From: an uncultured Arenicella sp.
GTDB taxonomy: Bacteria > Pseudomonadota > Gammaproteobacteria > Arenicellales > Arenicellaceae
DNA length: 64,000 nt
NCBI GenBank assembly: GCA_938045295.1
Contig: CALINO010000018.1
Span: 1 to 64,000, forward strand
Direction: 5' to 3'
The notes below the pieces were generated by a model, which made no database searches, was not told the DNA's origin, and saw only the letters and a program-made list of their open reading frames with translations. The position numbers and the translations under genes are program-made. The first letter of the stretch is position 1. Each line of letters opens with the position of its first letter. This document shows positions 54,903 through 59,736 of the stretch, one piece after another.

Positions 54903-56492
54903 ATGTTAACGGCAGAAATTTTAAATGCACTAAAAGGCTATACGGCAAACATGACTAATGCCGTCACCTTCGTTCTACAAACGGGCGAGCACTCAAAACG
55001 AGCTGAGTTAGTCGACTTCCTTACGCAAATCGCCTCTGTTTCAGACAAGCTTTCGATTGAAGAGCGTGATGCTGGCTTTCGTAGCCCAATCAGCTTTTCA
55101 CTGCAAACGCCTGAAGGCGACACTGGCATCCTATTTTCAGGCATCCCAAGCGGCCACGAGTTTAATAGCCTAATACTGTCGGTGCTTTGGTCTTCTGGCA
55201 CTGCAATGAAGCTTGATGACACACTTAAAAATCGCATAGCGGCTCCTGTTAATGAGAAGCTGCACTTTGAAGTGTTTATCAGCCTTGACTGCCACAATTG
55301 CCCCGATGTTGTACAAGCGTTGAATCAGTTCGCCTTGATCAACCCGAGTATCACCACCGAAATGATCGACGGTGGCTTGTTTCGTAATGTAATCGAAGAG
55401 CGCGACATACAAGGCGTGCCAAGCGTCTACCTAAATGGCGAAAAATTTGCCAACGGCAAAACCGAGCTCAGCACCATGGTCGACACGTTGATTGAGCGTT
55501 TTCCTGAAATGAAAGCGTCAAACGTTGTTGCACCTAAACTGCCCTTGCAAGACGTTACCATTATCGGTGGCGGCCCGGCAGGCGTAGCGGCCGCTATTTA
55601 CAGCGCCAGAAAGGGCTTGGCCGTAACATTGGTTGCTGACGTACTCGGCGGCCAAGTAAAAGACACCATGGGCATTGAGAACCTTATCTCAGTACCCAAA
55701 ACCACCGGCCCTGAACTGGTTGGCAATATGCAAGCGCACCTTGCGGATTATGAGATCACCATCAAAGAGCACGTACGTGTTCAGAGCATTGAAAAAGGCA
55801 ATATTAAAACCTTGGCTCTTTCATCTGGCGAAGAAATCGACACCAAAACATTAATCATAGCCACCGGCGCACGCTGGCGAGAGCTGGGTGTGCCGGGTGA
55901 AAAAGAAAACATCGGCAATGGCGTGGCTTATTGCCCACATTGCGACGGCCCGTTTTTCAAAGGCAAAGACGTGGCGGTGATTGGCGGCGGCAACTCCGGT
56001 ATTGAAGCGGCATTGGATTTAGCGGGCATTGTGAAGTCAGTCACCGTGTTCGAATTTATGCCCACATTAAAAGCCGATCAAGTGTTGGTAGATCAAGCGC
56101 AAAAACGCGACAACATCACCATATTAAAAAACGTGGCGACGAATCAGATTCATGCGCAAAACGGCAAAGTAAGTTCAATTGAATACACCGACCGAGCCAC
56201 CGAAGAAGTAACTCACCTAGAGTTAAACGGTGTGTTCGTACAAATCGGCTTAGTGCCCAACAGCCAATTTGCTGAAGGCGTGATTGAAATGAGCCAGCAC
56301 GGCGAGATTATTATTGACGAGCGTTGCAACACGTCAGAAAAAGGCATTTTCGCTTGTGGTGATGTAACAACGGTGCCGTATAAGCAAATTGTTATTTCAA
56401 TGGGCGAAGGCTCTAAAGCCTCACTGGCCGCGTTTGAATACCTGCTGACTCACGATGTTGATAATAGCCAAACAGCGGAGGTTGCCGCTTAA
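54903..56492 (+). CDS. ahpF: Alkyl hydroperoxide reductase subunit F
   Basis: AhpF transfers electrons from NADH to AhpC. From the ATG at 54903, preceded by GAGGA, it is 529 aa. It has an N-terminal double thioredoxin-like domain with C130/C133 (DCHNC), an FAD/NAD thioredoxin-reductase module with [19 protein letters not shown], the second redox pair C344/C347 (CPHC), and [17 protein letters not shown] for NADH. A strong terminator follows, so ahpC and ahpF form one operon. Confidence 0.97.
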
Positions 56493-56517: not shown

Positions 56518-56550
56518 AAAGGCCGCTGCGGGAAACCACAGCGGCCTTTT
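56518..56550 (+). terminator. Intrinsic terminator of ahpCF
   Basis: GGCCGCTG (56521-56528) pairs with CAGCGGCC (56539-56546) across a 10-nt loop, flanked by AAA and TTTT. It ends the ahpCF operon. Confidence 0.93.
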
Positions 56551-56591: not shown

Positions 56592-56620
56592 TTGCGCAAA
56601 TGAGAATCATTCTCTATATT
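56592..56620 (+). promoter_or_regulatory. Promoter overlapped by a Fur box
   Basis: TTGCGC (56592-56597) and TATATT (56615-56620) are separated by 17 bp. Between them lies TGAGAATCATTCTCT (56601-56615), which matches the 7-1-7 Fur core TGATAATnATTATCA at 11 of 14 defined positions and includes the perfect palindrome GAGAATcATTCTC. Iron-loaded Fur would cover the spacer and -10. The start would be at about 56628. Confidence 0.85.
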
Positions 56621-56627
56621 AAACCTC

Positions 56628-56800
56628 AGATGCAAATGAGACACATTTACATCGAATTGAAGCTTTTAATACATTGGCAGTTTGGTTGTATTACGGAAAA
56701 ACAGACCTTAGAGGTTTCAAAGCACACTTTTCTCAAAGTGAATAATAATATTCTCGGCACATTGATCAGGCAGAACGGCACTCCTGCCTGATCTTTTTTT
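56628..56800 (+). ncRNA. Candidate Fur-repressed small RNA (RyhB/PrrF-type analogue)
   Basis: No credible protein lies here: the one open frame of 63 codons starts before the promoter ends and has no ribosome binding site. The predicted transcript of about 173 nt starts from the Fur-box promoter. It has a hairpin CACTTT-TCTC-AAAGTG (56725-56740), then an A/U-rich single strand (56741-56752), then a perfect terminator. This is the usual plan of an Hfq-dependent trans-acting sRNA. It would be made under iron shortage. It is convergent with bacterioferritin, a typical RyhB-type target. The sequence is not recognisably RyhB. Confidence 0.72.
56764..56800 (+). terminator. Strong intrinsic terminator of the candidate sRNA
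   Basis: A perfect 10-bp stem, GATCAGGCAG (56764-56773) with CTGCCTGATC (56784-56793), encloses a 10-nt loop and is followed by seven T residues. It lies 54 bp before the bfr stop. Confidence 0.95.
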
Positions 56801-56854: not shown

Positions 56855-57319
56855 CTACATCATTGATTGCAAGTAATTCTGCTCGCCTACTTTTTCAAAT
56901 AGTTCGATTTGCGTTTCCAGCCAGTCATAATGCTCTTCTTCGTTTTCGAGTATCGATGCGAATAAATCTCGAGTAACATAGTCACGCACTTTTTCACAGT
57001 GCTCTACCGCGTCTCGGTAAACAGGGATTGCTTCGGCTTCTAAGCGCAAATCGCATTGCAACATTTCTAATACATTTTGCCCAATGTAGAGTTTGCCTAA
57101 ATCTTGCAGATTAGGCAGCCCTTCAAGCATAAGTATGCGCTCAATCAACATGTCGGCATGCTTCATTTCGTCAATTGATTCTTCATACTCTTTTTCATTA
57201 AGCTTTTCCAAACCCCAGTTTTTGTACATACGAGCATGTAAAAAATACTGGTTGATCGCCGTAAGTTCCAGCTTAAGTGCTTGATTCAGCAGCTCAATAA
57301 CACCGTCTTGCGCTTTCAT
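56855..57319 (-). CDS. bfr: Bacterioferritin
   Basis: Haem-containing 24-mer iron store with ferroxidase activity. The 154-aa protein keeps all ferroxidase ligands: E18, E51, H54, E94, E127 and H130. The haem ligand M52 (SIDEMKHAD) is present, so it is the haem-binding type rather than ferritin. The upstream region carries a Fur-like box at 57424-57441. No bfd ferredoxin gene is adjacent. The candidate Fur-controlled sRNA is convergent with it. Confidence 0.96.
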
Positions 57320-57423: not shown

Positions 57424-57441
57424 GCTAATCATTCTCATTTA
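57424..57441. promoter_or_regulatory. Second Fur-like box, upstream of bfr
   Basis: On the minus strand TGAGAATGATTAGCC matches the Fur 7-1-7 core at 11 of 14 defined positions. It lies about 110 bp upstream of the bfr start, between bfr and the DUF1971 gene. bfr is the only gene whose 5' side faces it. Confidence 0.6.
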
Positions 57442-59609: not shown

Positions 59610-59736
59610 AGTGGGGGGGGCGACAATTCAAAATAAAGAAAGGAGTAATGATTAAGACGGAGCTTAGTGCTTTTTACACAAAAATAAGTGTCGATATATG
59701 CTGACTAATATGTTGATATATGCTTTTATTGTTATT

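Follow-up and report, generated by a model that had tools for sequence, protein, structure and literature searches.

The block at positions 56592-56800 on the forward strand of the window, that is, the whole 64-kb stretch of DNA analysed here, is best read, with moderate confidence, as the gene of a RyhB-type iron-sparing small RNA (sRNA) of about 173 nt, which would act in trans, probably bound by Hfq, and which is unrelated in sequence to RyhB itself. The anatomy of a Fur-repressed sRNA is well supported, and the observations that carry the reading are the sequence elements of the block, the rarity of its combination of Fur box and terminator, and a statistical preference for certain targets. 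From these we infer transcription, Fur binding, Hfq binding and repression. When iron is plentiful, Fe-Fur would occupy the DNA between the -35 and -10 elements and block the promoter; under iron shortage, the sRNA would be transcribed up to its own terminator, and its single-stranded region would pair through UUCUCGGCAC, with the assistance of Hfq, with the leaders of sdhC, acnB and acnD. Such pairing would lower the synthesis of heme- or Fe-S-dependent enzymes of the TCA and methylcitrate pathways, leaving scarce iron to be used elsewhere.

The locus lies in a genome of 2.99 Mb, in the gene order LysR regulator (- strand), ahpC, ahpF, candidate sRNA, bfr (- strand). For the LysR regulator near ahpC, the best NCBIfam model is OxyR, with a score below the cut-off. 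The upstream neighbour, ahpF (54903..56492, + strand, start as chosen by the gene finder), carries Pyr_redox_2 and Thioredoxin_3 domains, and the hairpin beyond it (56518..56549), terminator-like on both strands, forms the left boundary of the unit. On the other side, as the original prediction had it, lies a bacterioferritin gene: bfr (56855..57319, - strand) is convergent with the sRNA and scores above the cut-off of TIGR00754. The unit is bounded by terminators at both ends, the ahpF hairpin on the left and its own on the right, and the next + strand open reading frame of at least 100 residues comes only at 59698; it is therefore not a leader.

The convergent gene has features of its own. 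From the bfr stop (56855) to 56549, the scans list no terminator-like hairpin on the - strand, so that bfr mRNA may cross the whole sRNA gene in antisense; it would hold the complete sRNA antisense if bfr transcription stops at the hairpin 56549-56518. Upstream of bfr, a TATAAT stands at -37 and, further out, a Fur-like site, AATGAGAATGATTAGC, with three mismatches (57424-57439, - strand), about 105-120 nt before the start, while in five of 15 other bfr loci (L003-L017) the best Fur-like sites (12 to 15 of 19) lie at -123 to -128. Such a site may point to direct activation of bfr by Fur.

The promoter consists of a -35-like hexamer, TTGCGC (56592..56597, + strand), and a -10 hexamer, TATATT (56615..56620, + strand), separated by a spacer that, read directly from the sequence, measures 17 nt (56598-56614) and is filled by an exact match to the Fur box, AATGAGAATCATTCTC (56599..56614, + strand). 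A near-consensus Fur box over the promoter had been proposed and is borne out. The accompanying claim of a well-spaced promoter stands for the spacing and the -10 element but has to be softened for the -35 element, which matches TTGACA at three of six positions, is absent from the list of the stock promoter scan, and counts against the iron-sparing reading.

The 16-mer AATGAGAATCATTCTC has a single exact match in the 2.99-Mb genome, and three other places come within two mismatches. In the window, one match is exact, and the five matches with up to three mismatches (0.50 expected) represent three places, since the count takes both strands of palindromic places. Near-match boxes in congeners adjoin genes for extracellular solute-binding proteins in all three cases tested, and the families concerned include iron-binding ones, the link to iron being our reading; other congener boxes lie beside feo-like and TonB-receptor-like genes, judged from their translations, and a near-match box in the sRNA's own genome lies near bfd. 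Given these putative iron genes, identification of the motif as a Fur box is very likely correct.

The predicted sRNA extends from 56628, a start placed from the -10 element, to the end of the T tract at 56800 (+ strand), in agreement with the length of about 173 nt first suggested for the region after the promoter. Its end is an intrinsic terminator (56764..56800, + strand) evident from sequence, folding and a hairpin scan, with the perfect 10-bp stem and seven T residues that had been described: GATCAGGCAG (56764-56773) pairs with CTGCCTGATC (56784-56793) around the loop AACGGCACUC and is followed by T7 (56794-56800). The stock terminator scan is limited to loops of 8 nt, and this 10-nt loop was found by a separate scan. 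The folding z-score is -3.08 with the terminator included (56626-56800) and -1.68 without it (56628-56763), so that, taken by itself, the internal structure does not stand out. Outside the terminator loop, the accessible part, defined as 8-mers with an unpaired probability above 0.3, is the AU-rich seed region at nt 114-136 of the sRNA, AAUAAUAAUAUUCUCGGCACAUU (56741..56763, + strand), marked by accessibility and pairing and comprising three ARN triplets and the seed UUCUCGGCAC (56751-56760). The motif CGGCAC occurs twice, in the seed region (56755-56760) and in the terminator loop (56776-56781), both of them exposed parts of the RNA. The ARN repeat and T7 tail are present by inspection, and we take ARN triplets with poly-U to be signatures of the Hfq type; in a sample covering 31% of the genome, motif searches detected no gene for Hfq or Fur.

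For target prediction, duplexes with translation-initiation regions (-80 to +40) were scored with a correction for accessibility, under one scheme throughout, first in 338 regions (genes of at least 110 residues) and later in 776 regions from 0.94 Mb (at least 100 residues). Among the 338, sdhC ranked first; among the 776, sdhC ranked 3, acnB 9, acnD, an aconitase-family gene identified by NCBIfam, 34, and sdhD 54. Against the iron-sparing reading, sodB (141) and bfr (246) did not stand out, and most of the top 24 predicted targets are, as we read them, not recognisably iron proteins. A second SOD-like gene ranked 7, through a site in its coding region that pairs with a structured part of the sRNA; nadA (quinolinate synthase) ranked 10 and a molybdopterin oxidoreductase 24, with a leuC-like gene at 454, ahpF at 511, ahpC at 551 and leuC at 630. 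Plain sequence matching points the same way: the longest match to the complement of the seed, GTGCCGAGAA, is 8 nt in sdhC (a length that 6 of the 776 regions reach), 7 nt in acnD (23 reach 7), 6 nt in acnB (79 reach 6), 5 nt in sodB and 4 nt in bfr.

The preference was compared with shuffled sequences for a set modelled on the targets named beforehand (sdhC, acnB, acnD, sodB and bfr) against 60 background genes; the second SOD-like gene and sdhD were left out of these tests, and leuC and the leuC-like gene were not counted as targets. The observed rank-sum of the target set was 0.484, with a mean energy advantage of -3.77 kcal/mol. Shuffling the body with the terminator kept gave a mean rank-sum of 1.37 (sd 0.39) and an energy of -1.17 (0.51) kcal/mol, and none of 45 shuffles was as extreme as the observed RNA on either measure; shuffling the full RNA gave 2.15 (sd 0.57) and -0.40 (0.77) kcal/mol, with 0 of 49 as extreme. 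The target set is inherently favoured, as the shuffled means of 1.37 and 2.15 compare with 2.5 for uniform ranks, and the repeat of the seed motif CGGCAC in the terminator loop probably explains part of the bias among body shuffles. Pairing with sdhC, acnB and acnD is predicted, and the preference for the set as a whole exceeds that of all 94 shuffles. Of the targets originally named, sdh (as sdhC) and acn (as acnB and acnD) are supported by prediction, and sodB and bfr are not; the RyhB-like logic is supported to the same extent, with sodB and bfr falling outside the predicted trans targets.

The target sites differ in their evolutionary histories. The sdhC leader contains GCCGAG at -89 and -42, and the 8-nt site GCCGAGAA (-42 to -35) is present in this species only, being found in none of 17 congener leaders of 110 nt each; GCCGAG itself occurs in one of the 17 (G017, at -98). 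The stretch at -89 is similar in many congeners, so that only the -42 site is clearly special. Its position, from -42 to -35, lies beyond the range in which pairing usually blocks the ribosome directly, which argues against the iron-sparing reading. At acnB, the predicted duplex takes in the Shine-Dalgarno sequence together with the initial two bases of the GTG start codon. Here the site, GCCGAGGA, is shared by six of ten resolved congener leaders, and the sRNA was not found in those congeners, which points to a pre-existing target and gives no evidence of co-evolution. In the acnB leaders (L245-L256), the GCC before the GAGGA Shine-Dalgarno sequence is kept in six of ten congeners, beyond what a ribosome site needs; another RNA might be its user.

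No homologue of the sRNA was detected by DNA BLAST in the other 99 of 100 genomes, by a covariance model in the other 60 of 61 genomes (the model being built from one sequence and run with strict filters that can lose weak matches), in plasmids and phages, or, as an exact 21-mer, in viral contigs. There is consequently no covariation or seed conservation to call on, a point against the iron-sparing reading. In the congener G002, synteny is kept, with ahpF adjoining bfr, and the spacer between them contains no Fur site at 14/19 or better and no + strand terminator-like hairpin; a possible remnant of the sRNA in that spacer was rejected, its local score of 31 comparing with a mean of 26 and a maximum of 43 for shuffled sequences. 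The promoter-terminator block, for which the original prediction had proposed a search in relatives, was thus not found among those examined, and the gene has either been acquired recently or diverges too far to be recognised. The idea of an undescribed sRNA of this lineage keeps its first half, as the RNA matched no Rfam family at the gathering score, and narrows in its second to an sRNA that is apparently species-restricted.

The arrangement was also compared with other Fur-like sites in the genus. Of 74 distinct Fur-like sites in its 18 genomes, counted without the duplicate locus L173, ten besides that of the sRNA are accompanied, on one side and at up to 300 nt, by a hairpin of some kind, and nine of these hairpins are short or have a broken T tract. 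The pattern of Fur box and -10 element gave 34 rows across the 18 genomes, 30 with loci examined, among which a strong terminator occurs at the sRNA site alone and weak hairpins at two others. A search for the seed followed by a T-run gave 27 rows across the genus; one of the 26 others has a hairpin (G003, L220), which has 6 pairs and a poor T tract and is formed by the seed itself. A comparable combination of Fur box and terminator was found in no congener of the 18-genome set.

The tenth hairpin belongs to the same genome as the sRNA (locus L138, contig C35). Situated on the - strand at a distance of 194 nt from the Fur box, within bfd and antisense to it, this hairpin forms 11 pairs (4 of them G-C) with one mismatch and has a T-run behind it. 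The Fur box of this stretch (1150-1516, - strand) is the second best of the genome, with one mismatch, and on the antisense strand stands TTCGGCACC, which shares seven letters with the sRNA seed; the stretch may be a second Fur-linked RNA, or chance in coding sequence. On the + strand (1501-1786), an 81-residue open reading frame without a Pfam match lies downstream of this same box, which itself follows a TTGACA.

Among other explanations, the block could be a short Fur-repressed mRNA, since one frame (56630-56791) is open through the transcript and could yield a small protein of some 53 residues, but this is highly improbable. On inspection the frame has no Shine-Dalgarno sequence, it would start within a few nucleotides of the predicted 5' end, and its stop falls inside the terminator stem; the frame taken from 56600 has no Pfam match. 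Its codon score of 0.012 per codon is near the 5th percentile of real genes (5th, 50th and 95th percentiles: -0.015, 0.176 and 0.335) and within the range of antisense pieces (-0.203, -0.041 and 0.096). What is found is a short unit with a Rho-independent terminator and no credible protein, as first described. We also think it unlikely that promoter and terminator are a decayed or chance pair with no function: the absence of homologues from the relatives searched would fit such a pair, yet it would have to account for the only exact Fur 16-mer in the genome, an intact perfect terminator and a target preference beyond 94 shuffles.

The layout of the locus itself suggests that a Fur-repressed noncoding transcript could act in cis, as an antisense to a 3' extension of bfr mRNA, by duplex cleavage or by transcriptional interference, the pairings with sdhC and acn being incidental. 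The convergent bfr, the stretch free of listed - strand hairpins beyond its stop and the weak rank of bfr as a trans target favour this, but the target preference (0/45 and 0/49 shuffles) would be left unexplained, and the putative read-through of bfr comes from scans to which Rho-dependent ends are invisible; we give action in cis a low probability. Action in cis and in trans might also be joined, an idea we regard as doubtful, in that a species-restricted sRNA would have arisen in the 3' flank of bfr and formed a mutual switch with it. With plentiful iron, bfr mRNA would read through, its 3' extension acting as an antisense sponge over the full length of the sRNA; with scarce iron, the sRNA would silence sdh and acn in trans and cut bfr mRNA in cis. 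The sdhC site would have arisen in the same species, and the possible unit antisense to bfd at L138, which has the heptamer TCGGCAC in common with the seed, may be a partner of the sRNA.

Returning to the preferred reading of a trans-acting iron-sparing sRNA, known systems offer parallels in logic. PrrF of Pseudomonas, a tandem pair, and NrrF of Neisseria are Fur-repressed and iron-sparing, a logic that is predicted here too, without a sequence match. The Rfam library includes both families, and neither these nor RyhB matched at gathering or among the eight hits at E values up to 5, in keeping with the original view that the sequence is not recognisably one of the three. The sub-gathering hits were rejected as chance: six of the eight, on the - strand, lie around the ahpF hairpin, and the two on the + strand belong to a microRNA and a cis-regulatory family; the best, to GibS (RF04182, - strand), reached 33.3 bits against a gathering threshold of 115. 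A literature search on Arenicella small RNAs and Fur-regulated analogues, with little subscription coverage, gave nothing on RNA of this organism, and the match listed for Arenicella and small RNA concerned an oligoribonuclease.

RyhB, of Escherichia coli and relatives, has an intrinsic terminator and sdh and acn targets. In the portion of the source available, a Fur box is also described in its promoter (PMC4144887). The block analysed here is alike in its Fur-box promoter, terminator and predicted sdh and acn targets, and differs in its length of about 173 nt, its seed and its lack of a sodB signal. HrrF of nontypeable Haemophilus influenzae is described in the same portion of that source as an intergenic sRNA whose promoter is overlapped by Fur boxes, an arrangement predicted for the candidate too, with a core fully conserved across several species and mod, asn and nrdB genes as RNA-seq targets (PMC4144887). 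The closest published parallel among the systems compared, set beside our candidate by description, is BrrF of Burkholderia cenocepacia, which, according to the available part of its report, resembles no known Fur-regulated sRNA in sequence, targets sdhC and acnA, and counts the 2-methylisocitrate dehydratase gene acnM among its predicted targets (PMC7377471); the counterpart of acnM among the predicted targets here is acnD. As far as that part of the report goes, BrrF has no Fur box directly upstream, is expressed together with hemP and shows conservation throughout Burkholderia (PMC7377471), whereas the candidate comes with a Fur-box promoter of its own and yielded no relatives in the genomes searched. 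Iron-sparing sRNAs seem to have originated on several occasions with no sequence in common, and the one predicted here, not found in the relatives examined, may have evolved recently as an answer to a widespread problem; with a target site in sdhC seen in its own species alone, it would offer a young case for following how such a regulator and its first targets are born.
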